Source: a virus. From it: a DNA stretch of 31,938 nt. The DNA is taken from positions 2,148 to 34,085 of the IMG/VR virus record IMGVR_UViG_3300030419_004973. One strand, given 5' to 3'. A program made the translations under genes and the position numbers. This document shows positions 573-18,461 of this stretch, in pieces (position 1 is the stretch's first letter; every line of letters begins with the position of its first letter). Under the pieces are notes generated by a model that saw only the letters and a list, made by a program, of their open reading frames with translations, searched no databases and was not told where the DNA came from.

Positions 573-580
573 ATTAAATA
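573..580 (+). promoter_or_regulatory. T4-type late promoter-like site ATTAAATA
   Basis: The octamer ATTAAATA differs from the T4 late promoter core TATAAATA at two positions, and TTAAATA is shared with the site before gp15. It lies 27 bases before the CP12-like start, in a gap with no supported gene. If used, it would place CP12 and the small gene after it in the late transcript. In AT-rich DNA this motif also occurs by chance, so position in the gap is the main support. Confidence 0.45.
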
Positions 581-588
581 GTATTGTT

Positions 589-607: not shown

Positions 608-871
608 ATGACTACTAAACCACATGACTTAGAGCATGAAGTTTACATTGAAGAAGATGGTAAAGAGCATATCAATCATGGTATGCATGAATACACTAAG
701 GCTGATTTAGAATCTACTCATGCTTATTATGATGAATACCATAAAGATGATGTAGTTGAATCTAATGAAGGTAAGATCAATGATTGGCATACCAGACATC
801 AGGATCAACATTTAGAAGTTTACTGTGACAATCATCCTGATGCAGACGAATGTAAAGTTTACGACGACTAA
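608..871 (+). CDS. cp12: CP12-like Calvin-cycle regulator (auxiliary metabolic gene), 87 aa
   Basis: The C-terminus, residues 69-87, contains LEVYCDNHPDADECKVYDD, which closely matches the CP12 ending: a cysteine pair eight residues apart (C73 and C82) around a proline, then an E-C-x-V-Y-D-D tail. In cyanobacteria CP12 bridges glyceraldehyde-3-phosphate dehydrogenase and phosphoribulokinase and shuts down the Calvin cycle in the dark; cyanophage copies are thought to shift host carbon flow to the pentose phosphate pathway and nucleotide synthesis. The N-terminal 60 residues are rich in His, Asp and Glu and lack the second cysteine pair of plant CP12, as in many cyanobacterial forms. The ATG at 608 is preferred over the in-frame TTG at 584 because the ribosome binding site lies between them. 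The next gene follows after four bases. Assignment is from the motif by eye. Confidence 0.75.
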   Translation: MTTKPHDLEHEVYIEEDGKEHINHGMHEYTKADLESTHAYYDEYHKDDVVESNEGKINDWHTRHQDQHLEVYCDNHPDADECKVYDD

Positions 872-875
872 AAAA

Positions 876-1058
876 ATGGAAAATGATTTTTTAGACAACT
901 TAGGCAATCATCAGCATCAAAAAATGCTAAGAGAAATAGCAAATGATGGAGCTACTCCTAAAAAGAATAAGGTTTCGTCCCATAATGACCTTTATTTTGT
1001 GGATGAAGAAGATGAATTAGAGTACGAAGGTGCTCCCACAACGTTAAATGAATTTTAG
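876..1058 (+). CDS. Acidic hypothetical protein, 60 aa
   Basis: The protein begins MENDFLDNLGNHQHQKMLRE and ends in a strongly acidic stretch (VDEEDELEYEG) before a short neutral tail. The ATG at 876, four bases after the CP12-like stop, is chosen because the longer in-frame start at 825 would lie deep inside CP12. No clear ribosome binding site precedes it, so coupling to CP12 translation is likely. It has no membrane segment or known motif that I can name. The position directly before the baseplate operon suggests a late or structural-accessory role, but that is only context. Confidence 0.55.
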   Translation: MENDFLDNLGNHQHQKMLREIANDGATPKKNKVSSHNDLYFVDEEDELEYEGAPTTLNEF

Positions 1059-1061
1059 TGA

Positions 1062-1068
1062 CTAAATA
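1062..1068 (+). promoter_or_regulatory. T4-type late promoter-like site CTAAATA before gp25
   Basis: CTAAATA lies in the 35-base gap between the 60-aa protein and gp25, 25 bases before the gp25 start. The same seven bases occur before gp13 and before the last gene, each time immediately upstream of a structural gene. It likely starts the baseplate transcript. Confidence 0.6.
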
Positions 1069-1093: not shown

Positions 1094-1495
1094 GTGCCTG
1101 TCCAAAGGGTCAGTAAGCAATTTAAAGATATTAGTGCTACTTTTCAGATTAATCCTCTGAATAGAGATCTAATCCAGCTTAAAAATGCCAATGCTATTGC
1201 AAGGTCAATTCGTAATTTAATTATGACTGTACCTGGTGAACGTCCTTTTAATCCTGTTCTGGGATCACAAGTGACTGGCTTATTATTTGAATCTTTGGAT
1301 AAATTAACTGCATCTACTATAAAATCTGAAATTATTAATACTATAGAAAACTTTGAACCTAGGGTCAAATTGAATGAAGTGATTGTGAAAGCAAATGCAG
1401 AAGACAATCAATTTGATGTACAAATCCAATATTATATTATTGGTATTGACGTACCTCCACAAGAACTCACATTCGCATTAGAACCCACTAGATAA
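1094..1495 (+). CDS. gp25: Baseplate wedge subunit gp25
   Basis: At 133 residues this matches the usual size of the gp25 family, the wedge component that shares a fold with lysozyme-like gpW of phage P2 and contacts the tail sheath. The start (QRVSKQFKDIS), the internal LIMTVPGERPFNPVLGSQV segment and the acidic region around ENFEPRV are characteristic: the PGER-x-F-x-P-x-x-G motif is the family signature. The GTG at 1094 is chosen as start because TAG at 1092-1094 closes the frame just before it and no better start lies near. No strong ribosome binding site is visible. gp6 begins at the very next base after its stop, so the two wedge proteins are almost certainly made together. T4 has gene 25 in another cluster; gp25 beside gp6 is the order of cyanophages and of P2-type W-J. 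Confidence 0.93.
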   Translation: MPVQRVSKQFKDISATFQINPLNRDLIQLKNANAIARSIRNLIMTVPGERPFNPVLGSQVTGLLFESLDKLTASTIKSEIINTIENFEPRVKLNEVIVKANAEDNQFDVQIQYYIIGIDVPPQELTFALEPTR

Positions 1496-3451
1496 ATGCC
1501 TCTAGTTAATTTTAGCAATATAGATTTTGATCAAATTAAGGTCTCTATACGGGACTATTTGAAAGCGAACAGCAATTTTACTGATTATGATTTTGAAGGA
1601 TCAAATCTATCTACCATAATAGACACACTTGCCTACAATACCTACATATCCTCTTATAATGCCAATATGGTATCCAATGAGGTATTCATTGATAGTGCCA
1701 CCCTGAGGGAGAACGTAGTCTCTCTAGCAAGGAATATAGGGTACGTACCAAGAGCAAGAAAGGCAGCAACTGCAAATATTTCTTTCGAAGTAGATGTTTC
1801 TGATAGTAATATCTCTACTGTAACCCTTCAACCAGGAATTGTTGCTACTTCTAGCTTACTTTTTGGAAATACAAGCTTCGTTTTCTCAGTTTTAGAAGAA
1901 ACAAAGGTTGCTGTAAGCTCACAAGGCATAGCAGCTTTCAATAATATTCCAATTTATGAAGGAACTTACGTAAAACAGACTTTTACAGTCAGTTCGAGGA
2001 CTCCGAATCAAAAATATATCCTTACGAATACTGGAATTGACACAAGTTTGTTAAAAGTTATTGTAAAAAGGGATGAAGGGTCCAGCGTTTCAAGAGTTTT
2101 TAGGAAATTTGACAGTTTACATAACATAGATTCCACAACTCCTGTCTATTTTCTTCAAGAAGTAGAAAATGAGAGGTACGAAATGCTCTTCGGAGATGGA
2201 ATTTTTGGAATGAATCTGTCCGAAGAGGCTTTATCTTACATCGAAGCAACTTATGTTGTCTCTAGTGGTGAATTGGGCAATAATATTTCACAATTTTCCT
2301 TTGCTGGACAGTTATTAGACCAAAATGACAGTCCAATAACCACTGGAATTTCTGTTGTAAGTACAGATGTTGCCTCTTATGGGGGATCTGCCATTGAAAG
2401 TGTAGAATCGGTTAAAAAATATTCCACTCAGATCTTCTCATCTAAGAATAGAGCAGTTACTTCCTCTGATTATGAGGCAATTATACCTCAAATTTACCCA
2501 GAAACAGAGTCAGTTTCTGCTTTTGGGGGTGAAGACCTTAGCCCGCCAGCATATGGAAGGGTTTTTGTCAGTGTTAAGCCTTATAATGGTACTCATCTCT
2601 CTAGTTCCATCAAGAGAAGTATATCTAATGACCTTAAAAAGTACTCAGTAGCAGGAATTGTACCTGAAATTGTTGATTTAAAGTATCTTTGGATAGAAAC
2701 TACTTCTAATGTTTACTATAATACTAACTTAGCACCAGGTGCAGATTATGTTAAAGCTGTAGTATTAAAGAATATCTTAAATTACTCCAAATCTTCTCAG
2801 TTAAATAAGTTTGGTGGGAGATTTAAATACAGTAAGTTTCAAAAAATTATTGATGACAGTCATGAAGCAGTGACTTCTAATATCACTACAGTGGATATGA
2901 GAAGAGATCTTGAAGCTTCAGTTGGTCAATTTGGTGATTATGAAATTTGCTTTGGTAATAGATTCCATATTAAGAACCCTGGTAAACCACCAGTAATGAA
3001 TAATATGGTTATTGGATACAATATTAGATCTTCTGGATTTAAAGTAAGTGGAGTAAGTGATACTTTGTATTTGGGAGATATTCCAAATGCAGACTTAAAA
3101 ACTGGATCATTACTTTTATTTAAATTAAATTCTCCAACAGAGGTGGTAGTTGTTAAAAAATCAATTGGAACAGTTGATTACATTAAAGGTGAAATCAAAC
3201 TTAGTGCCATTAAGTTTATACAAACTGAAGTGAATCGTGGAACACCTCTAATTGAAATTTCCGCTACACCTTATTCTAATGATGTAATTGGATTACAAGA
3301 CCTTTATTTGCAACTAGATATGAGTAATGTGGATGTTACTATGGTTGATGACAGAATTTCTTCTGGAAATGATAATTCTGGTAGCAATTATCTAGTTAAA
3401 TCTAGTTATGAACATAGTTTAGTTCGTGGGAACCCTGTTTACTCCTCATAA
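1496..3451 (+). CDS. gp6: Baseplate wedge subunit gp6
   Basis: The 651-aa product is close to T4 gp6 (660 aa), the protein that forms the continuous inner ring of the baseplate and joins the wedges. The N-terminal region at residues 10-90 shows the gp6/gpJ pattern: a DYLKANSNFTDYDFEGSNL segment, a LAYNTYISSYNANM segment and an ATLRENVVSLARNIGYVPR segment, all of which align with the start of T4 gp6. The middle contains an FGDGIFG motif typical of baseplate J-like proteins at about residues 230-240. The ATG directly abuts the gp25 stop without its own ribosome binding site, so translation is probably coupled. A 20-base gap without a late promoter motif separates it from the giant gene downstream. 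Confidence 0.93.
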   Translation: MPLVNFSNIDFDQIKVSIRDYLKANSNFTDYDFEGSNLSTIIDTLAYNTYISSYNANMVSNEVFIDSATLRENVVSLARNIGYVPRARKAATANISFEVDVSDSNISTVTLQPGIVATSSLLFGNTSFVFSVLEETKVAVSSQGIAAFNNIPIYEGTYVKQTFTVSSRTPNQKYILTNTGIDTSLLKVIVKRDEGSSVSRVFRKFDSLHNIDSTTPVYFLQEVENERYEMLFGDGIFGMNLSEEALSYIEATYVVSSGELGNNISQFSFAGQLLDQNDSPITTGISVVSTDVASYGGSAIESVESVKKYSTQIFSSKNRAVTSSDYEAIIPQIYPETESVSAFGGEDLSPPAYGRVFVSVKPYNGTHLSSSIKRSISNDLKKYSVAGIVPEIVDLKYLWIETTSNVYYNTNLAPGADYVKAVVLKNILNYSKSSQLNKFGGRFKYSKFQKIIDDSHEAVTSNITTVDMRRDLEASVGQFGDYEICFGNRFHIKNPGKPPVMNNMVIGYNIRSSGFKVSGVSDTLYLGDIPNADLKTGSLLLFKLNSPTEVVVVKKSIGTVDYIKGEIKLSAIKFIQTEVNRGTPLIEISATPYSNDVIGLQDLYLQLDMSNVDVTMVDDRISSGNDNSGSNYLVKSSYEHSLVRGNPVYSS

Positions 3452-3471: not shown

Positions 3472-6400
3472 ATGGCAATAGATAGAATCCAATTACAAGA
3501 CATTGTTGCTAGTCAACTGCCGACGTATGTGCAAGAAGACTTTCCTCTTTTGGGAGAATTTTTGCAACAGTATTATGTGTCTCAGGAGATTGAAGGAGGC
3601 ACCTACGATTTAATACAGAATATAGATCAATATGTCAAAGTTGATGAATTATATAATTTAAATGATTATACTAGTTTAAGTGCAGATATTTCATATACAG
3701 ATACTACTGTTGGTGCAGGAGCATCTACTAATTTTACTTATGGATTTCCTGAAGAAAATGGCATTATAAGAATAGATGATGAAATTATATTTTATGGAAA
3801 TAAAACCACAACCTCTTTTGAGAACTGTGTAAGGGGTTTCAGTGGCATTACAACCTATATCGGACCCGATACTCCAGATCAACTAGTATTTGAAGAAACT
3901 GCTGCTCAGAAGCATAGTGCAGGTGCTCAAATACAAAATTTAAATATTCTTTTCCTTAAAGAATTTTTCAAAAAAATTAAATATCAGTTTGCTCCTGGAT
4001 TTTCTGATAGAAAATTATCATCAGGTTTAGATCAAAGAAATTTTGTTTTTGGTGCAAGTAGTTTTTATGATTCTAAGGGAACAGATCAGTCATTTAAAAT
4101 ACTTTTCCAAGCACTTTATGGCGATGAAGTAAAAGTTATTAAGCCTAGTGAATTTTTATTCCGTCCATCTGATGCTAATTATGTTGTAACTAATGATTAT
4201 GTGGTAGAGAAGGTTGAAGGGGATCCTTTAGATCTTAAAAATCTTACTCTATTCCAAGATAGCACAAAAGCACGTGGAACAGTAACAAATGTTCAAAATG
4301 TTTTATATGGAGATGGACAATATTATCAAATTAGTATTGACTCTGGTTATCAAAGAGATATTGATTTAACTAGTGGAACAATTTATGGAAAATTTGCAGT
4401 TAATCCTAAAACTCAACTTTTAACTACTGTTGGATCAGGAGCTACCATTCTTGATGTTGATTCTACAATAGGATTTCCTCAAGAAGGAGATTTAACAACT
4501 TTCGATAGTAATGGATCTATTCTTAAATTAAAATATGGAAGTAAAACTTCAAATCAATTTTTTGATGTTTTAACTGGTGCAGGAGTTACTTTAACTCAAA
4601 CAATTGACGACAAGACTGATATACATTTGGATGATTATGCTTATGCTTATGTTGGAATTAATACTGCCAATCCAATTAAAGTTAGATTTACTACAACTCT
4701 TAAAAATCTTAAATTAGATGATACTACTTATTTGTATAATGTAAATGATACAATTAAAATTCAGTCTTTGGGGATAGAATCTGATGCAATCCCTTCTAAA
4801 AATTGGACTATTAATGTTAAAACTAACTGGGATGTTAGTTTTATTGGTATCCTTGATACTACAGAGAAAAAATATAGAGTATCTACTTTTGAAGATAATT
4901 TCTTCAGACCAGGATATGAAATTAATTTAATTGATGGTAATGGAGATGTCACTTCAGGAAGAGTAATTAAGAAAACTTCTGCAGTTGGAGTGGAGATTAT
5001 TTTAGATTCCAATGTAGATGTTGGTGCAACTTATACAATTGAAAATAAGATTTTAAAGGGAAATTATGCAGATAAGGTACTAGCTAATCAATCTATTGCT
5101 AATGTACAGAATACATATTCCAAATTTGATGGAGATGTTTTAATAGCATCTAATTCTTTAGCAAGTTATGGTGAAGATAAAGAAATTACCACATATGATA
5201 AGGTTAAGACTTTTTCTGGAAGAGCTGATTCTGAAACTATTACATTCTCAGGGTCTGCAGATCATGGATTCTATACTGGAGATGCTGTTTATTATCAGCA
5301 AGGTGAAAGTAAAACTACTGTAGAAATAGATCAAACAATAGTTACTGATATTACTATTAGTAAATTTGATAATATGGATGAAGGTGTCTACTATGTTTAT
5401 CGAGTAGATCCTACTAGTATTAAGTTAGGTAGAAGTAGAGCAGATTTGTATGATGAAAAATATATTTCACCTTCAGGATCTGTTGAAAATAATAAGTTCA
5501 TATATTATCCCCATTATCAAAAATCATTAACTCCTCAAAAACTTTATAGAAAAGTTACTGCTCCAATTAAAAAAGATGCTTCTTACCAGACAGAAACTGG
5601 TTATACTGGTATATTGGTAAATGGCGTAGAGATTCTTAATTATAAATCTGGAGATCAAGTAATTTATGGTGATTTAAGGAGTGTTGATATTGTAGATGGT
5701 GGGGATGGATATGATATTATTGAGCCACCTCTTTTCCATGTTTCTGATGTTGTTGGAAGTGGTGCAACTGGAACAACTGCTGTTGAGGGTAGTTTAAAAG
5801 AAATTAAAGTTGTAGATACTGGATTTGATTATGTTGGCGATCCTATTGTTAATATTGTTGGAGGAAATCCAACTAAACCTGCATCTGCAGATGTTGTTAC
5901 TACTGATATAATTCATACTGTTTCTTTTAATGCTGAAAGAGCAGGTGGTAATGTTGCTGTAGCCACAGATGGTGGTTTAAGCGGTATTGGTACTACTGAG
6001 GCAAGTATTGGATTTTCAACTTATCATAAATTTGCACCTGCAGAAAAGGTTATCTATAAAACAAATGGAGGAGATGCTCTTGTAGGTTTAGTTACTAATT
6101 CCTCTTATTTTGTACAGGTTGTAAATGATTCTAAAATTAAACTTCATACCAGTTATAGTGATGCAGTAGTAGGAGTTAATACTGTAGAGTTTACTAAGTA
6201 TGGAACTGGTAACCAAGATATTCAATCTGCTAGTAAAAAGAAAGTAGTATCCAATATTGTTGTAACTGATTCAGGATCTGGATATAAAAATAAAAAAAGG
6301 ACTATTCCTAGTGGTGGAATTAGTACTTCTCGTAATCAAATTAATATAATCAGTCATGGTTATGAGACTGGGGAAATTATTAGATATACTTCAGCCATTC

Positions 6401-9400
6401 CCGTTGTTTCTGGTCTTTCTACTACCACTGATTATTATGTGCATAAGGTAGATGATAATAATTTCTCTTTAAGTGTTGTTGGGAGTGGAGTTACAATAAA
6501 ATATTACTTAGATAATAATATTTTTGTTTCTCTTGGTTCCACTGGAAATGGATCTTTTAATTACAAACCAATTAGTGTTACTATTGATGGTGTAATTGGT
6601 ATTGCCACTTTAACTGGTCAAGATTTTAGAGCAAAAATTCAACCCCTCTTTAGAGGTGCAATTGATTCAGTTGATTTAACTAATAATGGAACTGGATATG
6701 GATCTTCTGAAATTATTAATTTTGATAGACAACCAGAAATTACGTTCCAGAGTGGAAGTGCTGCTTTAGTTAGTCCTGTTATTGATAATGGGAAAATTAT
6801 TGAAGTAGTTATTAATAAATCTGGAAGCGGATATAATACACCTCCTAATCTAACAATTAGTGGCATTGGTTCTTATGCCCGATTGACTCCAATAATAAAC
6901 AATGGACAATTAATAGAAGTTAAGGTACTTAATGGTGGTGTGGGATATGAAGCAGATAAAACATCTATTACTGTAAAAGCTGCTGGAGAAAATGCTACTG
7001 TAGATACTAATATTCGTAGATGGACTGTTAATCTATTCCAGAAGAATTTGAATATTCTTCAATCAGATGATGGATTAATTAGTAATAATCTTTCTAATGA
7101 TTCTTTACAATATGCACATGTTTATCTGCCTCGTTTATTGAGGGAGAGTGTTTATGGTATAACAGAAGAAAGGATTATGTATGGTAATCCTGATTTAGAA
7201 AGAAATGCAGTAAGTGAGGAAGAAGAGAATAGTCAATACCATTCTCCCATAGTTGGTTGGGCATATGATGGTAATCCCATCTATGGTCCTTATGGATATG
7301 CAAATCCTAGTGGTGGATCAATCACCCGAATGAAGACAGGATATAAGGTTCAGGTTGATTCTACAAATAGACCTAGTGCTTCTTTATATGGTGATGGATT
7401 CTTTATAGAAGATTATACTTTTACAGATCAAGGACATTTAGATATCCACAATGGAAGATTCGGCGTAACTCCGGATTATCCTAATGGAGTGTATGCGTAT
7501 TTTGCTACTATTGATTCTATTAATAGTGGAACAGAACCATTTGAGAAATCTAGACCACCTCTTTTCCCTTATTTCATTGGTGATAGTTATCACTCTGAAC
7601 CCAATTCCTATAACTTTAAGAAATCTTCCAATCAAAATGAATATGATGTAGTATCTGAATCTTGGTTAAGAAATACGAGTGATTATCATTTGAATGATGC
7701 GAAAAGTGGATATAATTATATCTTCAATTCTAATAAATTGAAGGAACAAACAATTAATATTACAGGAGCAACAATTGGAGATATAGAATCAGTAAAAATA
7801 GTTAGTGGAGGTGATAAGTATCAAGTTGGAGATAAAATTAGCTTTGATAATGATGGAACTGCTGGAAGTGGAGCTAGAGCAAAAGTTAGTAGGGTAGGTG
7901 GAAAGAAAGTTATAACCACCAACACTACCACTAGAGAAATTACTAATGTAGAGTTTGCTTCTGCTAGTTACGATACATTTATTGGATTTACTTCTACTCC
8001 TCATTCTTTTGAAAATGAGGAAGTTCTTAGTATTTCAGGTCTCTCTACTCATTTCCCTGGATTTGATGGAGATTATGCAGTTGGAGTAAGATCTGATAAT
8101 TTTGTTTTACAATTGGGAGTAGGCAATACTTCTGCTACTGGTATTGTTACTTACTTCTATGTAAGTGGTCAATTGGAGTATCCTGCGATTCGTCCTAATG
8201 ACATTTTGGGAATTGGAACTGAAAAAGTTAAGGTTTTGAATATTGATAATAAGAGTAAGAGAATTAGAGTTCTTAGAGAAGTTGATAATACTCAAACTTC
8301 TGGTATTGCATATACTAGCGGTAGAGTATTATTTGAGAATCCTAGGAAATTTACTATAGATGCTGGATTAGCAAAGACTACTAAATCTTTTACTTTAAAT
8401 GAGGAATTTTATTTCTATCCTCCAGAGTCTGTAGGTCTAGGAACTGTTACTCCTACTGGTGCTGGAACAACTATTACTTTTGCAAATCCAGGAGTTGGAG
8501 TTGCTTCTATCTTCCTTGAGCCACAGTCCATTTATATTCCAAATCATGGATTACAATTAAATGATAAGGTAACTTATCAAACTAATACTGGAACTGCTAT
8601 TTCTGCTTGGAATGGAATTACAACTAATACCATTGGACCTGCTTATGATCCTTTAACAGATCATGATTATTTGTATATTGCTCCTCTTACTAGAGATACA
8701 ATTGGTCTAGCAACAAATAAAGTTGGAGTAGCATCCACTGGTGGTGGTTATGCTGGTGTTGGTACTGATATTGGATTATTATATTTTACTGCTCTTGGAA
8801 CTGGTTCTTATCACAGTATTAAAACTTCTCTGGATAAAGTAATAAGTGGAGAAGTAAGTATTAGTACAGTTACGGTTGCAGTATCTACTGCTCATGGATT
8901 AACTAAAGGTGATGAGATTTTCTATGATTTAAATCCCAGAGATACTAAGACAATAAATGTTCTTTATGATGATTATACTAGGAGAATAGTTTTTGATCCT
9001 ATAACCTTTGTAGCTGCAAATGTTAATGTAATAAACAATACTATTACTCTTAATAATCATAATTTCAATACAGGAGACAAAATAATCTATAAGTCTTCAT
9101 CTCCGATGACTAACCTTCAGAATCAGGGGATGTACTTTGTTTTAGTTGATACTAAGCATAAGATTAAGTTAGTAAAGAATGAAGCAGATTTAGAAACTGC
9201 ATTAATTATTAATTTGGAAAATGCTTCTGATGGAACTATTTGTAGAATTAATCCTTATGTAAAGGTGAATAAGAATCAAACTTTAAAATTTGATTTGTCT
9301 AGTACAACTTTAGCATTTGTTCAAAATAGTACTAATTATTCTGCTTTTGATTTAGATCTTTATTCTGATAGTAAGTATAGTAATATATTTTTAACTTCTA

Positions 9401-12400
9401 AAGCAACTTCAACATTTGAAGTCACAAAGAGTGGAGATGTTGGGATAACTACCACTGCTAACTTAACTGTAGATTTTACTGATGATGTTCCTGATAACTT
9501 ATGGTATAAGTTCTCTCTTCAAAATACTGATCTCATTCCAGCTATTAAGAGTGAGTTAGTAAATGATACTGAAGCATATGGACATAATAAGGTAGATGTA
9601 GTTAAAACTGTTTATGATGGCAAACAAACTATTGTAGGAGTTGGAACTACTACCTTTACTTTCAATATCAAGAAAGCACCTGTTAAAGCTGGGTATGGTG
9701 AAACTAATTCAAGCTCTACTTATGAAACTACTTCCACTACTGCAGTTGGTCCTATCAAGAAGGTAAGAATTAGTAATCCTGGATTCTCTTATAAGAATGT
9801 ACCTGGAATTTCCAGTATTACTACTACTCTTGGTGAAGGGGGTATTTTAGAAGCAGAGAGTAAGAGCATTGGATCTATATTGAGTGAAGAGTTTGATGCT
9901 AATGGTGTTGGATTTGCATATCCATCAGATGAAACTTTAAGAGCAGTTGCAAATCTTCCAGAAATTATAAAAGTAGAACCACTTTCTTCTTTTGAGAGTA
10001 TTGGAATTACTTCTGCTGGTAAGAATTATCTTGTAGCACCTGATCTGATTGCTATAGATGGATTTACTAAGAAAGTTCTTAGTGAAGCTGATATAGAATT
10101 TGAATTGGGTGATAATAAGGTTACCATTATCAATAATACTACAGGATTGTACAATACAACTCCAACAATTCTTCCTATTAATAATTCTAATGGAGTTGGA
10201 ATTACATCTTTATCATATACCTCTGCTACAAAGACAGTAAGACTTTATTTGAACACTACATTTAGTAGTGCTTCTGATTTCCCTTACAAGGTTGGAGAGA
10301 CTATTTTAGTTGAAAATGTTAATGTGGGCGTCACTACTACTGGAAAGGGTTATAACTCTGCTGGTTATGATTATGCACTTTTTGAGATGACTGCTGTTGC
10401 TCCTCAATTGGGAGGTAGTGGAGCTTATGTTGAATATAGTCTTGAAGACCATTTAGGGACTGGAGAGATTCCCGGAGAGGTGGTATCTGGAACATCCTAT
10501 GCAAGAGTAATACCTTCAAATCAATTCCCCATTTTTGATCCAGTATTGAAGAAAAATAATTTTGCTATTGGGGAAGATGTTACAAATGGTGAAACTGTAG
10601 GACAAGTTGAATCTTGGAATAATAAAACTGAAACATTGAAAGTTTCAGTCAGCACTGAATATGAAATTGGTCAGACTCTAAAAGGTCTAAGTTCCAATAC
10701 TCAAGGGGTAATAGGAGGGAAGAATGATTTTAATGCTCAGATTATAACCGGAGCTGGTGCAACCATAGTGGATGGATGGTCCAAGAATACTGGATTCTTG
10801 AATAACAGTATGCAGAAGTTACCAGATAATCAATATTATCAGAATTTCTCTTATTCAATTAGTTCTAAAGTACCATTACAAACATGGGATGATCCTGTAA
10901 GTATATTAAATCATCCATCTGGATTTGAAAAATTTGCAGATCTTCAAGTAGTAAGCGAACAAAATAATCCTAGAGATGCAGTTGTAGTCGCTGATGAAAC
11001 TAATATTGAGATAGTAGTAGATTGTATTAGTGAAAGTGATTTAAATTGTGTTTATAATTTTGATTATGTTAGAGAAGGTACAGTCTTTATTAATGGGGGA
11101 GCTTACTCTAATGAGATAATCTTTGAAAATAGAACAATAAGTGATTACTATGAATCTGTTGGTAATAGAGTATTGAGTATTGATGACTTTAGTTCAACAT
11201 TTAATAGTAATGAAAGAACTACTAAATTTGGACAAGTAGGTGCAGGTAATTCAAATTATACTTTTAATAAGATATTTACTTATGTAAAAGATAACATTTA
11301 TACTGATGAAAGACAGTTCTTAGTTGCATCAGTTCTTCAAAATGAAGCCGTTGGTTATATGCAGGAATATGCCACTATTGAGTCTGTTGATAACTTGGGA
11401 TATTATAATTATCTGGCAACTGCAGAAGGTTGGGATTTAACCTTCTATCCCCTTAATTATGAAACTAGATCTTATAGTGTTTCTACAGTTAACTTTAGTA
11501 TATTGAATAATTATAGTGGAGTAACAACCACTGCTCAATTGGGTGATGTAGTTAAAATAAGCAGTGGTGTATCTACTATAGGTGCTGGTTCTTCTGGAAA
11601 TATCGTTTCTATTTCCTCCACATATAGGGCCGCCAAAGTTTTAGTAATGGCTCAAGATAGCAGTAATAATTATACTGCAAATGAATTTAATATGATTCAT
11701 GATGGGTCTATTGTATTCTTAAATGAGTATGGAAATATTGATACTGTAGATAGCCCAGTATTTACTGGATTTGGTACATTTAATGCTTTTGTTGATGGGG
11801 AATCAAATCTTAAGGTAGATTTTATTTCTTCCTCTTCTGTTGAACTTACATTAAATGCTTCTATTGTTGCTATTGCAGATACAGCAACTGGAATTGGAAC
11901 ATATTCACTTAATACAGGTAAACTGGATTCTAGTTATACCGCTATAGCAGCTACAACTGTTTTAGCACCTGTTGCTGTTGCCTCTTTTGATGATCCTTAT
12001 GATTCTTCTTATTGTGTTCTTTCTGTGAAAGATACTACTAATGATCTTTATGAAGTAATTGAGATTGCTGCTATTAAACAAGGAGAAGATCAAGAAGAAG
12101 TATATGTTGATTGGGGAAATGTTGGAACTGGAGGAAGTATAGGAAAAGTTGGTATTGCTACTGATGGCAGTAGTGCTCTTAATATCACTTATACTCCTAA
12201 TACCTCCACTGCTGTTCAAGTAAGAACATTTGGTGTTGACCTTCAAATTTATAATGATAATGACAATGATACTTCAATGCCTGCAGACAATATAGTCATT
12301 CATGGCAATAAAGGTAGCTATAGTGGAACTAAATTAGATCTTCAAACTCAATTTGCTCTTAATCATGATGGTAATGCCATCTTTAGAAGAATATTTGATG

Positions 12401-15400
12401 GAAGTGATGCTGGAATTGCTGATTCAACTTCCAATTATGTAAGAATTGCTGATCATTATTGGGTAACTGGAGAAAATGTAACTTATGGGTGGCCAGGTAC
12501 TGGAACTACTATGGCAATTGGTGTTGCTTCAACTAATCTTTCTGGAGTAACTACTGATAAATTACCTTCTGATCTTTATGTGGTTAAAGTGGATGCAGGG
12601 AAGTTAAGATTTGCAGCAAGTGCAGAAGATGCATTAGCAGTTAATCCTAGCGTCTTTGAATTAAATGCAGTTGGTGTTGGTGAATCTCATACCATTACAT
12701 CTAAGAAACAGAATACAAAAGCAATCATTACAATTGATAATATGATCCAATCCCCTGTTGTTGCTACAGCAGTAACATCAACATTGGGTGAAGATATTGT
12801 TTTCCAAGAGAGATTCCTTACTACTGGAATTAGTTCTTTTGCTTCTCAAGATATTATTAAGGTAGATAATGAGTATATGATTATTGAGGATATTGGAGTT
12901 GGAGCAACTTATAAAATTGGTGTTGAAAGAGGTAAGTTGGGAACCAACGTTGCAATTCACACTTCAGGGGCCTTAATTACTAAGATATCTGGAAATTATA
13001 ATATTGTTGATAATACCCTTAATCTCTCTCAAGCACCTCATGGAGGTATACCTATTAGTAGTACTACTAATGAACCAGATGATAGAGATTGGGTAGGAAT
13101 TACTACTAATTCTACTTTCCATGGTAGAACATTTATGAGAAGGGTTGCTACAGGAACTGATGAAGAAACCTATGCTAGCAACCATACTTTTGATGATATC
13201 TCTCATCAATTTACAGGAATTAAGTCTGACTTTATTTTAAAATCTGGTGGATCTAATGTTACTGGATTCTCTACTCATAATGCAGTGGTTTTAGTTAATG
13301 GAGTATTCCAATTAGCTGCAGGTGAGCAACCTAATGATGATCATGATTATGATATTACTGAGGATGTTGGAGTTTCTACTATTAAGTTTAGTGGAACAGA
13401 CAGACGTTTTGGATATGATCCTAATAGAACAGAATATCCAGTAGGAGGATTGATTGTTTCTGTAGCATCTAGTGCTGGATTTGCTTATCAACCTCTTGTA
13501 GCAGCAGGAGCAACTTGTGATGTAGGAACTGCAGGTACTGTTACTGTTGTAAGTATTGGTAATACCGGATCTGGATACCGACACGGGGTTCAAACAGTTA
13601 ATGTTGGCATTCAAACAGTAAGTGTTGGATCTTCTAATCCAATTGCTATTGGAACAGCAATAATCACTGATGGGCATATTACTTCAGTTGCTATTAATAC
13701 TGATCCTGTATTCTATATCCCAAGATCTGTTGCGGGAGTTGCTTATAGTTCTACAAGTGGAATAACCACTGTAACTACTAATTGGAATCATGGATTAAAT
13801 GCAGGTGATGAAGTTCTTCTTTCAGGTATAGCATTTACTTGTGAATATGCTCCATCAGTTTCTGTTGGTGTTGCAACTTATACCAATACTACTGGTGTTA
13901 TGACAGTTACTACTTCAACTGCTCATGGATTAAGTACCAGTAAAACTAAAGATTTTGTTATTCTAACTGGATTGGGATTCACCTGTAACATTGATTCGGG
14001 TGTTAGCACTCATTTCTATCCAAGAGCCAAAGATCCTTTCTACGATACCGCTGTTTCTATTGCTTCAACTACTGCTACCACCATTACTCTTGAGGTTGGA
14101 TATGCTAATGCTGGTCAACAGTATACTCACACTTGGAAGGGTGGAACAGCAACTAATGCAGTACAGAGTGGTGGTAATTATGGGCATAAGTTTGTAAGAG
14201 CAGTATCTAATTCTGTAAGTGCAGATTCTGGTGCTACATTTACACCAACTAATGCTGCTTATACTCCTTCGAGTGGTCTTTTAGTTCTGACTGTCCCAAG
14301 CCATGGATTGACCACTTCTAATACTATTCAATTCGCTCAAGATGCTTTGACATTTACTTGTGCAATGGATGCTAATAGGACTGAGCATACTTATCCTAGA
14401 ACAAGTGATCCTGTTGCTGGTATAGGAACTACTATTTCTTCGGTTACTACAGATACCATTTCACTTAATGTTGGTATTTCTACAATTGTAAATCATAGCA
14501 TTACAACTGCCACTTACAATGCCTCTAGCGGTATTATGACAGTTACTATTGGTGCTCATACACTTAAAACAGGTACTAGTGTCAAGATTGCTGAAGAATC
14601 ATTAACATTTGCTTGCTCTAGAGATGGATATGCTACTGATCATAAGTATCCAAGAAGAGGAGATCCTTTCTTCAATGGAATGAAGGTTCTTAATGTTAAT
14701 TCTACTAGAGAATTTGAAGTGAATGTTGGAACTTCAACAGTTCCTACTTACTATAAGACTGGTGGTATAGTTCAACCAGCTATTATTGCTCCTAGACAGG
14801 GAACTAGCAGTGGTGGTACAGGAATTGCTACAGGGGTAGATCCTGCCTTTAATGGCACTCCTGTTAATAGGATTCTCAGTGATACTAAGTTTGAAGTTAA
14901 TAGTGGTATATCCAGTAGAGATCATCACTATGCTAGAGGTGGAACTGTGAAGAAACCACTTGAGGTGGTAATTGATTCTCCTCTAAGTTATGAGAATATT
15001 CCTTTAGAATATAGTACAGATTCTGCAACAGGTGCAGGTCAAAGTGCTACTGTTGATATTGTAGTTGGACAGGGTTCTAGTGTTATCCATTTTGAAGTTC
15101 ATGATTATGGATTTGGTTATGGTAATGGAGAAATTCTCACAATTCCTACTGGAGGAACAACAGGAATTCCTACAGATACTACTACCAACGTCTTTGCTGA
15201 ATTTACCTTAACTATAGAAGATGTTTATAGTGATAGTTTTAATGGATGGTCATTGGGACAAATGCAAGTTTTAGATGCATTTGATAGTCAATTTGATGGA
15301 ACTAAAAAATCATTTAGACTTTCTGTTAATGGTGAACCCATTTCTATTCAAGCATCTAAGGGATCTGATATTGAAGTAGAAGATACTCTTTTAGTCTTTA

Positions 15401-16872
15401 TTAATAATGTTCTTCAAAAACCAGGAGATGCATATCAATTCCAGGGTGGAAGTATTCTTACCTTTAGTGAAGCTCCTAAGGGACCTAATTTTGAAAATGG
15501 AAATGTAGCAATTGGAGACAGTTCTCAAATCCTATTTTATAAGGGTGCTGGTAGTGTTGACGTTGTCTTCAAAGATATTCTTGAAACTGTCAAGAAGGGT
15601 GACAAATTAGATATTGATTTTAATCCATTAATGGGTCAGACAGTAGTTCTGGATGAAGAGCCTAGAGTAGTTACTGGTATTAATACCATTGATACAGCTG
15701 AAACTAATCTCTATAATGGTCTTGGAATTACTACTGATAAGAGTGTTGTTAGACCAGTTACTTGGTGTAGACAAACAGTAGATCTTATGTCCAATAATAA
15801 TAAGATTGGAAAAGATAGGCCACATTATGAACCACAAATTCGTCCTTCTACATATTTGATTCAATCTGTAGGATTAGATACTACTACAATCTATGTTAAC
15901 AGTGCAGTACCATATTTTAATCCTGTTAATGAAATAGAAGATAGTGGAGAAAGAAGTACATGGCAAGACATCATTGTAGTAAATGATGCAGATACATTAA
16001 CAGGAGCAGCAGCCACTGCGAATGTTTCTACTGGTGGAACAATTTCTTCTATTATAATCAGTAATGGAGGTATTGGATATACCGCAGCACCTACAGTTAC
16101 TATTTCTAATATTGTTGGTGGTGGTAATAGCACTGGAGTTGGATTAGCAACTGCAGTTGTAAGTGCTGCTGGAACTGTAAGTTCTATTATAATCAGTTAT
16201 GGTGGAACCACTACTGGTACAGCATATAGTTCAGTTACTCCACCTGCGGTGTTGATTGAACCACCTACTCTGCAAAGAGAAAAGATGAATGTAGATTCTT
16301 ATAATGGTGATTCTGGTGTTATTGTTGGGGTGGGAACTACAACTTCCGGAACACAACAACAATTCTATTTTGATCTCTTTATTCCTCAAGGTTCTTATCT
16401 GAGAAATACTAGTATAGTTTCCACTGCTGTAACAGTAAGTGGTATTAGTACAGATGATTACTTTGTAGCTTTTGACACTAATGCTTCTATTGGAAGCACA
16501 TTTGCATCTGAATCTGGAGATGGTACTACAACTGTAGGAATTGGAACTACACAACTTGATGCTGTATACAGAGTGAAGAGTGTAGAAACAAGAACCATGG
16601 CTAATGTAACTGCTGGTTCTACTATAGGATTCTCTACTGATGTGAGAAGAGTATTTGTTAATGTTGATACTTACAATACTGGCATTGCATATACCACTTC
16701 TCCTTTCTTAGGACAATTTACTTGGGGTAGGATTGTTACAGAAGAAAGAGCCAAACCCAAGACATTTGATGCTCATACTATGAGTGGTATTGGAACCCCA
16801 GGAAGTGGAATATCTACTTCTAGTGTAGTTACTAGATTTAATTCCCTCAAGTACATCGCTTACACCGAATAA
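3472..16872 (+). CDS. Giant virion structural protein, 4466 aa, in the gp7 position
   Basis: One uninterrupted frame of 13.4 kb lies between gp6 and gp8, the place occupied by gp7 (1032 aa) in T4. I do not see convincing similarity to gp7, so function is placed by context: a baseplate or peripheral tail structure. The N-terminus (residues 1-60, RIQLQDIVASQLPTYVQEDF) is a compact helical start, followed by an EII...RG module at about 97-160. Later come several GxGY repeat units (three in tandem near 1064-1175, others near 3369 and 4203), a YHYH-like domain at about 1255-1375, repeated H-G-(L/F/Y) elements, four FTC units at 3455-3740, and a fibre-type VFINNVLQKPGDAYQFQGG segment near 3973. The body is rich in Thr, Ser, Gly and Val, as in beta-rich fibres. 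No signal peptide or membrane segment. The assembly is consistent with similarly placed long virion proteins of cyanophages. Confidence 0.88.
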   Translation: MAIDRIQLQDIVASQLPTYVQEDFPLLGEFLQQYYVSQEIEGGTYDLIQNIDQYVKVDELYNLNDYTSLSADISYTDTTVGAGASTNFTYGFPEENGIIRIDDEIIFYGNKTTTSFENCVRGFSGITTYIGPDTPDQLVFEETAAQKHSAGAQIQNLNILFLKEFFKKIKYQFAPGFSDRKLSSGLDQRNFVFGASSFYDSKGTDQSFKILFQALYGDEVKVIKPSEFLFRPSDANYVVTNDYVVEKVEGDPLDLKNLTLFQDSTKARGTVTNVQNVLYGDGQYYQISIDSGYQRDIDLTSGTIYGKFAVNPKTQLLTTVGSGATILDVDSTIGFPQEGDLTTFDSNGSILKLKYGSKTSNQFFDVLTGAGVTLTQTIDDKTDIHLDDYAYAYVGINTANPIKVRFTTTLKNLKLDDTTYLYNVNDTIKIQSLGIESDAIPSKNWTINVKTNWDVSFIGILDTTEKKYRVSTFEDNFFRPGYEINLIDGNGDVTSGRVIKKTSAVGVEIILDSNVDVGATYTIENKILKGNYADKVLANQSIANVQNTYSKFDGDVLIASNSLASYGEDKEITTYDKVKTFSGRADSETITFSGSADHGFYTGDAVYYQQGESKTTVEIDQTIVTDITISKFDNMDEGVYYVYRVDPTSIKLGRSRADLYDEKYISPSGSVENNKFIYYPHYQKSLTPQKLYRKVTAPIKKDASYQTETGYTGILVNGVEILNYKSGDQVIYGDLRSVDIVDGGDGYDIIEPPLFHVSDVVGSGATGTTAVEGSLKEIKVVDTGFDYVGDPIVNIVGGNPTKPASADVVTTDIIHTVSFNAERAGGNVAVATDGGLSGIGTTEASIGFSTYHKFAPAEKVIYKTNGGDALVGLVTNSSYFVQVVNDSKIKLHTSYSDAVVGVNTVEFTKYGTGNQDIQSASKKKVVSNIVVTDSGSGYKNKKRTIPSGGISTSRNQINIISHGYETGEIIRYTSAIPVVSGLSTTTDYYVHKVDDNNFSLSVVGSGVTIKYYLDNNIFVSLGSTGNGSFNYKPISVTIDGVIGIATLTGQDFRAKIQPLFRGAIDSVDLTNNGTGYGSSEIINFDRQPEITFQSGSAALVSPVIDNGKIIEVVINKSGSGYNTPPNLTISGIGSYARLTPIINNGQLIEVKVLNGGVGYEADKTSITVKAAGENATVDTNIRRWTVNLFQKNLNILQSDDGLISNNLSNDSLQYAHVYLPRLLRESVYGITEERIMYGNPDLERNAVSEEEENSQYHSPIVGWAYDGNPIYGPYGYANPSGGSITRMKTGYKVQVDSTNRPSASLYGDGFFIEDYTFTDQGHLDIHNGRFGVTPDYPNGVYAYFATIDSINSGTEPFEKSRPPLFPYFIGDSYHSEPNSYNFKKSSNQNEYDVVSESWLRNTSDYHLNDAKSGYNYIFNSNKLKEQTINITGATIGDIESVKIVSGGDKYQVGDKISFDNDGTAGSGARAKVSRVGGKKVITTNTTTREITNVEFASASYDTFIGFTSTPHSFENEEVLSISGLSTHFPGFDGDYAVGVRSDNFVLQLGVGNTSATGIVTYFYVSGQLEYPAIRPNDILGIGTEKVKVLNIDNKSKRIRVLREVDNTQTSGIAYTSGRVLFENPRKFTIDAGLAKTTKSFTLNEEFYFYPPESVGLGTVTPTGAGTTITFANPGVGVASIFLEPQSIYIPNHGLQLNDKVTYQTNTGTAISAWNGITTNTIGPAYDPLTDHDYLYIAPLTRDTIGLATNKVGVASTGGGYAGVGTDIGLLYFTALGTGSYHSIKTSLDKVISGEVSISTVTVAVSTAHGLTKGDEIFYDLNPRDTKTINVLYDDYTRRIVFDPITFVAANVNVINNTITLNNHNFNTGDKIIYKSSSPMTNLQNQGMYFVLVDTKHKIKLVKNEADLETALIINLENASDGTICRINPYVKVNKNQTLKFDLSSTTLAFVQNSTNYSAFDLDLYSDSKYSNIFLTSKATSTFEVTKSGDVGITTTANLTVDFTDDVPDNLWYKFSLQNTDLIPAIKSELVNDTEAYGHNKVDVVKTVYDGKQTIVGVGTTTFTFNIKKAPVKAGYGETNSSSTYETTSTTAVGPIKKVRISNPGFSYKNVPGISSITTTLGEGGILEAESKSIGSILSEEFDANGVGFAYPSDETLRAVANLPEIIKVEPLSSFESIGITSAGKNYLVAPDLIAIDGFTKKVLSEADIEFELGDNKVTIINNTTGLYNTTPTILPINNSNGVGITSLSYTSATKTVRLYLNTTFSSASDFPYKVGETILVENVNVGVTTTGKGYNSAGYDYALFEMTAVAPQLGGSGAYVEYSLEDHLGTGEIPGEVVSGTSYARVIPSNQFPIFDPVLKKNNFAIGEDVTNGETVGQVESWNNKTETLKVSVSTEYEIGQTLKGLSSNTQGVIGGKNDFNAQIITGAGATIVDGWSKNTGFLNNSMQKLPDNQYYQNFSYSISSKVPLQTWDDPVSILNHPSGFEKFADLQVVSEQNNPRDAVVVADETNIEIVVDCISESDLNCVYNFDYVREGTVFINGGAYSNEIIFENRTISDYYESVGNRVLSIDDFSSTFNSNERTTKFGQVGAGNSNYTFNKIFTYVKDNIYTDERQFLVASVLQNEAVGYMQEYATIESVDNLGYYNYLATAEGWDLTFYPLNYETRSYSVSTVNFSILNNYSGVTTTAQLGDVVKISSGVSTIGAGSSGNIVSISSTYRAAKVLVMAQDSSNNYTANEFNMIHDGSIVFLNEYGNIDTVDSPVFTGFGTFNAFVDGESNLKVDFISSSSVELTLNASIVAIADTATGIGTYSLNTGKLDSSYTAIAATTVLAPVAVASFDDPYDSSYCVLSVKDTTNDLYEVIEIAAIKQGEDQEEVYVDWGNVGTGGSIGKVGIATDGSSALNITYTPNTSTAVQVRTFGVDLQIYNDNDNDTSMPADNIVIHGNKGSYSGTKLDLQTQFALNHDGNAIFRRIFDGSDAGIADSTSNYVRIADHYWVTGENVTYGWPGTGTTMAIGVASTNLSGVTTDKLPSDLYVVKVDAGKLRFAASAEDALAVNPSVFELNAVGVGESHTITSKKQNTKAIITIDNMIQSPVVATAVTSTLGEDIVFQERFLTTGISSFASQDIIKVDNEYMIIEDIGVGATYKIGVERGKLGTNVAIHTSGALITKISGNYNIVDNTLNLSQAPHGGIPISSTTNEPDDRDWVGITTNSTFHGRTFMRRVATGTDEETYASNHTFDDISHQFTGIKSDFILKSGGSNVTGFSTHNAVVLVNGVFQLAAGEQPNDDHDYDITEDVGVSTIKFSGTDRRFGYDPNRTEYPVGGLIVSVASSAGFAYQPLVAAGATCDVGTAGTVTVVSIGNTGSGYRHGVQTVNVGIQTVSVGSSNPIAIGTAIITDGHITSVAINTDPVFYIPRSVAGVAYSSTSGITTVTTNWNHGLNAGDEVLLSGIAFTCEYAPSVSVGVATYTNTTGVMTVTTSTAHGLSTSKTKDFVILTGLGFTCNIDSGVSTHFYPRAKDPFYDTAVSIASTTATTITLEVGYANAGQQYTHTWKGGTATNAVQSGGNYGHKFVRAVSNSVSADSGATFTPTNAAYTPSSGLLVLTVPSHGLTTSNTIQFAQDALTFTCAMDANRTEHTYPRTSDPVAGIGTTISSVTTDTISLNVGISTIVNHSITTATYNASSGIMTVTIGAHTLKTGTSVKIAEESLTFACSRDGYATDHKYPRRGDPFFNGMKVLNVNSTREFEVNVGTSTVPTYYKTGGIVQPAIIAPRQGTSSGGTGIATGVDPAFNGTPVNRILSDTKFEVNSGISSRDHHYARGGTVKKPLEVVIDSPLSYENIPLEYSTDSATGAGQSATVDIVVGQGSSVIHFEVHDYGFGYGNGEILTIPTGGTTGIPTDTTTNVFAEFTLTIEDVYSDSFNGWSLGQMQVLDAFDSQFDGTKKSFRLSVNGEPISIQASKGSDIEVEDTLLVFINNVLQKPGDAYQFQGGSILTFSEAPKGPNFENGNVAIGDSSQILFYKGAGSVDVVFKDILETVKKGDKLDIDFNPLMGQTVVLDEEPRVVTGINTIDTAETNLYNGLGITTDKSVVRPVTWCRQTVDLMSNNNKIGKDRPHYEPQIRPSTYLIQSVGLDTTTIYVNSAVPYFNPVNEIEDSGERSTWQDIIVVNDADTLTGAAATANVSTGGTISSIIISNGGIGYTAAPTVTISNIVGGGNSTGVGLATAVVSAAGTVSSIIISYGGTTTGTAYSSVTPPAVLIEPPTLQREKMNVDSYNGDSGVIVGVGTTTSGTQQQFYFDLFIPQGSYLRNTSIVSTAVTVSGISTDDYFVAFDTNASIGSTFASESGDGTTTVGIGTTQLDAVYRVKSVETRTMANVTAGSTIGFSTDVRRVFVNVDTYNTGIAYTTSPFLGQFTWGRIVTEERAKPKTFDAHTMSGIGTPGSGISTSSVVTRFNSLKYIAYTE
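6661..6996 (+). repeat. Three tandem GxGY beta-repeat units in the giant protein
   Basis: Within residues 1064-1175 the pattern 'I-x-x-V-x-(L/I)-x-N-x-G-x-G-Y' recurs as NNGTGYG, KSGSGYN and NGGVGYE, with the tyrosine codons at 6697, 6832 and 6946, so the units are 45 and 38 residues apart. Each is followed by a short strand such as PPNLTISG. Single related units occur near 5700 and 5810 and further downstream. Confidence 0.8.
7231..7581 (+). other. YHYH-like domain inside the giant protein
   Basis: Residues about 1254-1373 carry the hallmark run of the YHYH family: YHSPIVGWAYDGNPIYGPYG, then HLDIHNGRFGVTPDYPNGVY from about 1322, then LFPYFIG at 1364-1370. In YHYH proteins these correspond to the G-W-x-x-D-G-x-P-I-Y-G-P-Y-G motif, the L-D-x-x-N-G-R-x-G-x-T-P-x-Y-P-x-G-x-Y motif and the F-P-Y-x-x-G motif. 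The family's biochemical role is not established to my knowledge. All the expected motifs are present in the right order, so the domain looks intact. Confidence 0.8.
13834..14670 (+). repeat. Four FTC...YPR..DP repeat units in the giant protein
   Basis: The elements FTCEYAP (residue 3455), FTCNID (3503), FTCAMD (3628) and FACSRD (3713) each follow an H-G-L or related element. The last three are followed by H-x-Y-P-R-x-x-D-P: HFYPRAKDP, HTYPRTSDP and HKYPRRGDP. Spacings are 48, 125 and 85 residues, so units are of uneven length or degenerate. The first lacks the YPR part. Confidence 0.78.
16047..16197 (+). repeat. Short direct repeat, in-frame duplication in the giant gene
   Basis: The 16-base string TTCTATTATAATCAGT occurs at 16047-16062 and again at 16182-16197, exactly 135 bases (45 codons) apart and in the same reading frame. 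Both encode SIIIS followed by Asn-Gly-Gly or Tyr-Gly-Gly at the head of a GxGY-type unit. DNA-level identity suggests a fairly recent duplication of one unit. Confidence 0.7.
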
Positions 16873-16904: not shown

Positions 16905-18461
16905 ATGGCGGCCATAATTACTGACCAACTTCGTATTTTAAACGCTAAGAACTTTATTGCTGGTGTTCAGACTAGCACTAATTCTTATTATACGTTTATT
17001 GGATTACCCAATCCAGCAGATGTTCAATCTGATTGGGATGTAAGTCCTCCTACGCCGGAGGATAGCTTGAATAGTTTCAATGAAGATTGGGACACTATGT
17101 TAGCAGTGAAAAAAATTAATACTGCTGATGTCAGTCAGGTTGTTAATAAGAATACATGGTCATCTGGTGTAACATATGACATGTGGAGAAATGATATCAC
17201 TATTGATAATCAATCTCAACCGTCTGGTGTTGCTGATATCTATTCAGCAAAATACTATGTAATGAACTCAGATTATAGAGTTTATATTTGTTTGTATAAT
17301 AATTCTAAACCAGAAAATAATCATAGAGGAGGACCTTCTTTAGATGAACCAACTTTCACTGATTTAGAACCTAGAGCTGCAGGTACTAGTGGTGATGGTT
17401 ATATTTGGAAGTATCTTTATACTATTAAACCTAGTCAAGCAATTAAGTTTGATTCTACTAACTATATTCCTGTTCCCAGTGAATGGTCTACTAATACTAC
17501 AGATGCTGCTGTTAGACAAAATGCAGCAACTAGTGGTCAGATAAAAATTGTAACTATTAGAAGTAGAGGTGCTGGTTTAGGAACTGCTAGATCTTATACC
17601 AATGTTCCTATTAATGGGGATGGTGCAGGAGCAAAGGCAACAGTTGTTATTAACTCTGATTCTAAAATTGATTCTGTAACCGTTTCAAATGGGGGTTCTG
17701 GATATTCATTTGGTAGTTTAGATTTAGAATCTGGTGGTGTTCCAACAGGAACTACTATTCCTGATTTTGATGTTATTATGCCTCCTCCAGGAGGTCATGG
17801 TAAAGACATTTATCGTGAATTGGGTGCTTTTAATGTTTTATGTTATGCACGTTTTGAAAATGATACAGAAAATCCAGACTTTGTTACTGGTCAACAATTT
17901 GCTAGGGTTGGTTTATTAGAAAATCCTGAACTTTTCAATTCTTCTAGCATATTTACTGATGATAAAGGTAGTACATCTTATGCTATAAAATTAACTGGTG
18001 TTGGTTATAGTGAAGCTACTTTTACACCTGACAGTTTTGTTACTCAAACAGTGGGAGTGGGATCCACTGCTGTTGGAAGAGTTATTGCATATGAGCAAAT
18101 TACTGGGGTATTAAAATTATGGCAGGATAGATCTACTGCTGGATTTACTACAGTTGGAGCAGCTATAACAAATCCAACTTATGGATTTACACTGAATAGA
18201 TTTACCGCAGGTATTGCAACTGGTGGAAGTTATAATATTGTTCCTACTACCGGTAATACTTTAGCTATTGAAACTTCCTTTACCGATAATAAAGTAGTAA
18301 TAAATAATAGAGATTATTATCTGGGACAAGATTTTACCCTAGGTGTTGCTCAACCTGAAGTCCAGAAATATTCTGGAAATATTATTCACGTTGATAATAG
18401 ACCATCTGTTACAAGGTCATCATCCCAAAAAGAAGACGTCAAAATTATCTTGCAATTCTAA
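16905..18461 (+). CDS. gp8: Baseplate wedge subunit gp8, enlarged
   Basis: gp8 is a dimeric wedge protein that binds gp6, gp7 and gp10 in T4. Two landmarks identify it: GDGYIWKYLYTI (about residues 164-175), matching GDGYVWEYLFEI of T4 gp8, and the C-terminal SGNIIHVDNRPSV followed by a stretch ending VKIILQF, matching the T4 ending with MENRPPI and INILFTF. The N-terminal YYTFIGLPNPADVQSDWD and PPTPEDSLNSF also fit. At 518 residues it is much longer than T4 gp8 (334). Part of the excess is an insertion around residues 220-290 carrying a GxGY unit (NGGSGYS, near residue 263) like those of the giant protein. No ribosome binding site is obvious; a late promoter-like site precedes it. The next gene starts six bases after its stop. 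Confidence 0.92.
   Translation: MAAIITDQLRILNAKNFIAGVQTSTNSYYTFIGLPNPADVQSDWDVSPPTPEDSLNSFNEDWDTMLAVKKINTADVSQVVNKNTWSSGVTYDMWRNDITIDNQSQPSGVADIYSAKYYVMNSDYRVYICLYNNSKPENNHRGGPSLDEPTFTDLEPRAAGTSGDGYIWKYLYTIKPSQAIKFDSTNYIPVPSEWSTNTTDAAVRQNAATSGQIKIVTIRSRGAGLGTARSYTNVPINGDGAGAKATVVINSDSKIDSVTVSNGGSGYSFGSLDLESGGVPTGTTIPDFDVIMPPPGGHGKDIYRELGAFNVLCYARFENDTENPDFVTGQQFARVGLLENPELFNSSSIFTDDKGSTSYAIKLTGVGYSEATFTPDSFVTQTVGVGSTAVGRVIAYEQITGVLKLWQDRSTAGFTTVGAAITNPTYGFTLNRFTAGIATGGSYNIVPTTGNTLAIETSFTDNKVVINNRDYYLGQDFTLGVAQPEVQKYSGNIIHVDNRPSVTRSSSQKEDVKIILQF

Follow-up and report, generated by a model that had tools for sequence, protein, structure and literature searches.

Conserved late-type promoter motif upstream of a T4-GC63-type CP12 gene that precedes gp25 and other baseplate genes in a T4-like cyanophage

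Among the auxiliary metabolic genes of cyanophages, that for CP12 is well known, and it is held to act in the early or middle phase of infection so as to supply nucleotide synthesis. Two clusters of T4-like genes, 337 and 63, were described by Sullivan et al. (2010) as "CP12 = carbon metabolic regulator", the P-SSM2 gene being 267 bases long (PMC3037559). Expression data place cp12 of phage P-HM2, along with other auxiliary metabolic genes, in a middle expression cluster (PMC5082946). Of the two cysteine pairs of Synechocystis CP12, the C-terminal pair docks GapDH2 while the N-terminal pair, together with the AWD_VEEL motif, acts on phosphoribulokinase (PRK), the C-terminal pair being the one whose loss matters more (PMC9623430). 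Here we compare these systems with a cp12 gene found at positions 608..871 (+ strand) of the window, i.e. the whole stretch of 31,938 bases that was analysed (bases 2148-34085 of the 34,085-base virus record IMGVR_UViG_3300030419_004973), on which an earlier note had been made from sequence alone.

The window has a T4-like cyanophage gene order, in which small ORFs are followed by cp12, a 60-aa ORF, gp25, gp6, and a very long wedge gene. The gp25 baseplate wedge subunit (1094..1495, +) was identified by Pfam GPW_gp25 (E 2.7e-16) and PHROG 261, and the cultured phages closest by this protein are the Synechococcus phages S-B05, RN05-S, RB11-B, and S-B43 (68%) and Prochlorococcus phage P-TIM68 (67%), the match to gp25 of P-TIM68 and S-B05 thus being 67-68%. 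A gp6-like baseplate wedge subunit (1496..3451, +) was assigned by position and by synteny with the gp25-gp6 genes of P-TIM68 and S-SM2. The single ORF of 4466 aa that comes after it (3472-16872) looks normal for the group, since the corresponding position in P-TIM68 is taken up by a baseplate wedge gene of 12.9 kb. Upstream of cp12, a 57-aa ORF with a C-x4-C pair (292-465) is conserved in cp12-bearing contigs, and gave a weak, below cut-off match to a Pfam zinc domain (zf_CopZ, E 0.023).

The 87-aa product of cp12, counted from its ATG, matched the CP12 profile PF02672 (E 1.5e-7; 32.5 bits versus a cut-off of 22.7) over residues 47-86 (746..865, +), the match spanning profile positions 30-70 of 70 only. 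Residues 69-87, LEVYCDNHPDADECKVYDD, carry the CP12 ending that the earlier note had recognised in the last 19 residues, and their match to the nearest solved CP12 peptide, 3zdf, had an E value of 0.0012 with the single sequence and 1.1e-5 with the family profile. The cysteine pair within this ending (C-x8-C; Cys73 at 824-826, Cys82 at 851-853) is present without exception in all 65 non-identical relatives, as are V84 and D86 of the terminal [VI]-Y-[DE]-[DE], while Y85 is kept in 64 of the 65; the C-terminal profile match and the conserved cysteine pair are the two features on which the earlier note had staked its identification, and both are borne out. The best PHROG was 2603 (function not assigned; E 2.6e-22), and an NCBIfam search of the 87-aa protein gave no match. 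With tblastn, relatives matching along the full length came from P-SSM2 and P-SSM5, at 78%, and from single-cell virus records of marine origin, at up to 79.5%. The P-SSM2 protein, PSSM2_066, is 78% identical over all 87 aa and its record bears the note T4-GC 63; judged by sequence, the gene is an already known type of auxiliary gene (T4-GC63) and not a new one, and genes of this type are often still "hypothetical" in database records. Purifying selection acts on cp12, with dN well below dS: dN/dS was about 0.06-0.19 against 12 relatives (e.g. dN 0.054 and dS 0.58 for one, dN 0.071 and dS 1.07 for another), and dN was low in both halves of the gene.

Compared to canonical CP12 with both N- and C-terminal modules (Synechocystis, chloroplasts), the window protein has the C-terminal cysteine pair and the Y-[DE]-[DE] tail in common, but lacks the N-terminal (PRK-docking) cysteine pair, C73 and C82 being its sole cysteines, and the core AWD_VEE motif; phmmer pairs 48-DVVESNEGK with DVVEELQAE of 5nmu, without the AWD. 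GAPDH is therefore probably the protein's only target, unless PRK is weakly recruited, and a full GAPDH-CP12-PRK complex is unlikely. Since only the GAPDH-docking pair is kept, a GAPDH-directed inhibitor is the best reading. AlphaFold2 placed helices at residues 31-44 and 69-75 in a model whose confidence was low (mean pLDDT 52.7); such a model would be compatible with a conditionally disordered CP12 and is no proof of disorder. We infer that CP12 would be made during infection of a marine picocyanobacterium and would most likely stay largely disordered until the C73-C82 disulphide forms, upon which the C-terminal helix and tail of the oxidised protein would dock into host GAPDH and inhibit it. 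The Calvin cycle would then slow, leaving more NADPH and carbon available to the pentose-phosphate route and to the making of nucleotides. To the whole explanation, namely that the window encodes a T4-GC63-type cyanophage CP12 that serves as a redox-dependent GAPDH inhibitor in the host and is probably expressed from its own late-type promoter, we assign a probability of roughly 0.8.

Phage CP12 proteins fall into a GC63 type (the window and P-SSM2, with shorter forms in Syn1, RB11-B, and ACG-2014f) and a host-like type (T4-GC337 of P-HM2 and S-SM2, and also P-TIM68), which were separated with 100% SH-aLRT support in a tree of 93 sequences. That tree had no single clade of gp25-linked window-type genes, yet such a clade was not rejected (AU p 0.198; few columns). 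The two subfamilies align over their C-terminal half; H45, H64, C73, P77, and C82 are the only residues invariant in 12 sequences. PSSM2_066 has the His-rich N-terminus and the C-terminal cysteine pair of the window protein, but its gene is some 19 kb upstream of gp25; the neighbours there are a methyltransferase and small genes, and TAAATA is missing from the sequence immediately preceding it. The T4-GC337 and P-TIM68 proteins have the C-terminal CP12 half, equivalents of H45 and H64, and the central helix in common with the window protein, but form the separate subfamily, with a host-like N-terminus (MKSIE-HI type) and 24-35% identity to it. All 12 phage records checked had one CP12 match each; one phage contig in the sample has two cp12 genes some 1 kb from each other (1289-1519 and 2495-2728), one host-like and the other of the short GC63 type, which suggests that the types are not simply interchangeable.

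The GC63 type is not exclusive to phages, as had been considered, because strong PHROG 2603 matches (55-96 bits), albeit of the short type, turned up in 19 out of 300 genomes belonging to one cyanobacterial family; ordinary CP12 scores only about 16-33 bits against this profile. In these genomes (~19 of 300) the second, short GC63-like gene is present in addition to ordinary CP12, and many of its products end in CKVFDC. Both picocyanobacterial proteins have the CP12 tail of the window protein, but the GC63-like ones are short, resembling those of Syn1 and RB11-B, and lack the long His-rich front; they are a possible source of the short phage GC63 type. Host-like cyanophage CP12 (53-76% to S-SCSM1) was also found in contigs of genome assemblies labelled Nonlabens, Rhodopirellula, Euryarchaeota, and Anaerolineales, one of which (NZ_RMVE01000006.1, Nonlabens, 188,235 bases) approximates a whole cyanomyovirus genome in extent; such contigs probably come from phages and ended up in the bins or assemblies of other organisms. 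A 189,106-base contig of Prochlorococcus AG-418-C09 carries a phage-like CP12, the host-type CP12 of the same genome being on another contig, and this 189-kb contig may be an infecting phage.

The earlier note had placed cp12 just upstream of gp25. Its position by the baseplate genes is conserved, but a 60-aa ORF (876..1058, +) intervenes, which tblastn in syntenic contigs shows to be kept at that place. The order cp12, 60-aa ORF, gp25, gp6 was found in the IMG/VR contigs whose gp25 is nearest to that of the window, and a similar ORF is present in a further contig. At the equivalent place P-TIM68 has an annotated "CP12 protein", of the host-like subfamily, and the next ORF, which carries no annotation, is homologous to the 60-aa ORF (42 aa; 53% over 32 aa, E 5e-11). 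Five contigs have a host-like cp12 only ~31 bases before gp25. A second junction occupied by cp12, in S-SM2 and many contigs, is flanked by a tail gene (T4-GC15) and gp5; within the contig sample, in which numbers are skewed by relatedness and by the choice of queries that gathered the contigs, 25 GC63-type and 82 host-like cp12 genes had both neighbours, and 12 more GC63-type and 17 more host-like genes had the tail gene alone. In cyanomyoviruses, then, two distant CP12 subfamilies are both found at these two junctions of baseplate genes, a recurrent arrangement.

Ahead of cp12 lies a late-type promoter motif, TAAATAGTA (575..583, +), whose TAAATA (575-580) is 33 bases before the ATG; read as ATTAAATA (573-580), it has one mismatch to NATAAATA, the late promoter of S-PM2 (PMC2984593). 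A second late-type motif, gacTAAATAagg (1063..1068, +), is found 31 bases before gp25. We surveyed gp25-linked cp12 genes with 60 bases of upstream sequence, a set that includes both CP12 subfamilies and, owing to relatedness, represents fewer than 26 independent cases: TAAATA was present 27-36 bases before the start in 26 of 26, mostly as TAAATAGTA and always followed by [GAC]T[AT], compared to 4.4 on average, and at most 10, in shuffled upstreams. When 16 ORF starts of the window were checked, six had TAAATA 26-54 bases ahead of them (cp12, gp25, and those at 16905, 26798, 29124, and 30573). The late-type promoter proposed for cp12 in the earlier note is thus well supported, given TAAATA in all 26 gp25-linked genes and at five other window starts, and cp12 of the window lineage is probably transcribed from it, ahead of the gp25 baseplate operon. 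The motif is not specific to gp25-linked cp12, a notion rejected because 53 of 82 host-like cp12 genes between the tail gene and gp5 also carry TAAATA; among GC63-type genes at that junction it precedes 5 of 25.

The earlier note had gone on to suggest that host carbon metabolism is redirected late, together with virion assembly. In the window lineage the TAAATA motif would support late expression without proving it, and the timing of cp12 may differ from that measured in other phages. The motif alone does not fix timing, because cp12 of P-HM2 belongs to the middle cluster despite having CATAAATA upstream, which, as read from the sequence, overlaps a sigma-70-like TTGACA. It is close to an even bet that a location ahead of gp25 carries no information on timing, cp12 having landed at the edge of the gp46-gp25 small-gene hot spot named by Sullivan et al. 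(PMC3037559) and being of the middle class as in P-HM2; middle promoters of cyanophages may indeed combine early and late elements (PMC2984593). Such chance placement sits less easily with the near-fixed spacing of the motif in 26 of 26 gp25-linked genes from two CP12 subfamilies, with the location of most other sampled cp12 genes between tail and gp5 genes, and with a promoter scan that found no sigma-70-like site across 560-608, the nearest being at 470-498. We offer more tentatively, with the odds leaning against it, the opposite proposal that cp12 of the window lineage and those related to it is genuinely late, with a promoter and a location that couple arrest of the Calvin cycle to virion assembly, in contrast to P-HM2, and that two subfamilies repeatedly fill two junctions because late CP12 is selected.

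The residues preceding the CP12 ending had been described as unusually rich in His, Asp, and Glu, and the His-rich front as a possible phage-specific addition. While the richness is real, it is mild: these residues make up 41% of residues 1-68 versus a mean of 36% (range 28-46%) in the equivalent part of 74 host-type CP12s, in which His averages 5 compared to 10 in the window protein. Phage specificity applies to approximately the first 26 residues (608..685, +), a His-containing N-terminal extension that alignments show to be conserved among the long GC63-type proteins of phages but missing from CP12 of the hosts. Residues ~27-68 do align with host and host-like CP12, and because residues ~27-50 correspond to its central helix, only the first 26 or so look type-specific. 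Among 65 non-identical long GC63-type proteins, His 6, 10, 21, 24, 38, 45, 61, 64, and 76 are each kept in at least 95%, with His6, 10, 21, and 24 at 96% or above, and purifying selection on the His-rich N-terminus is strong over residues 1-46. As Chlamydomonas CP12 binds Cu and Ni (PMC9406205), metal binding by the window protein would, by analogy, be a fair idea.

The nine conserved His, the strong selection on residues 1-46, the metal binding of the Chlamydomonas protein, and the contig bearing both CP12 types could also be taken to indicate a CP12 descendant that has been repurposed, its front binding metal or another partner and its C-terminal tail serving as a redox or docking tag with no shut-down of the Calvin cycle. 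We consider this unlikely: the best-conserved part of the protein is its C-terminal GAPDH-docking residues, H45 and H64 are conserved in host-like CP12 as well, so that part of the His content is simply CP12, and a host-like CP12 fills the equivalent junction in P-TIM68. We regard it as very improbable that CP12 is made late and travels in the particle, packaged together with the baseplate or attached to it, and so reaches the next cell to be infected. The repeated location of cp12 at two baseplate junctions is the one point in favour, but cp12 is away from structural genes in P-HM2 (with talC) and Syn1 (next to td).

A GAPDH-directed CP12, probably with its own late-type promoter, remains our preferred reading of the gene. 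What is mildly new is the occurrence of two CP12 subfamilies at two common baseplate junctions, the gp25 junction having a conserved late-type motif. If many environmental cyanomyoviruses carry cp12 among late baseplate genes, the picture based on P-HM2 may fail for them.
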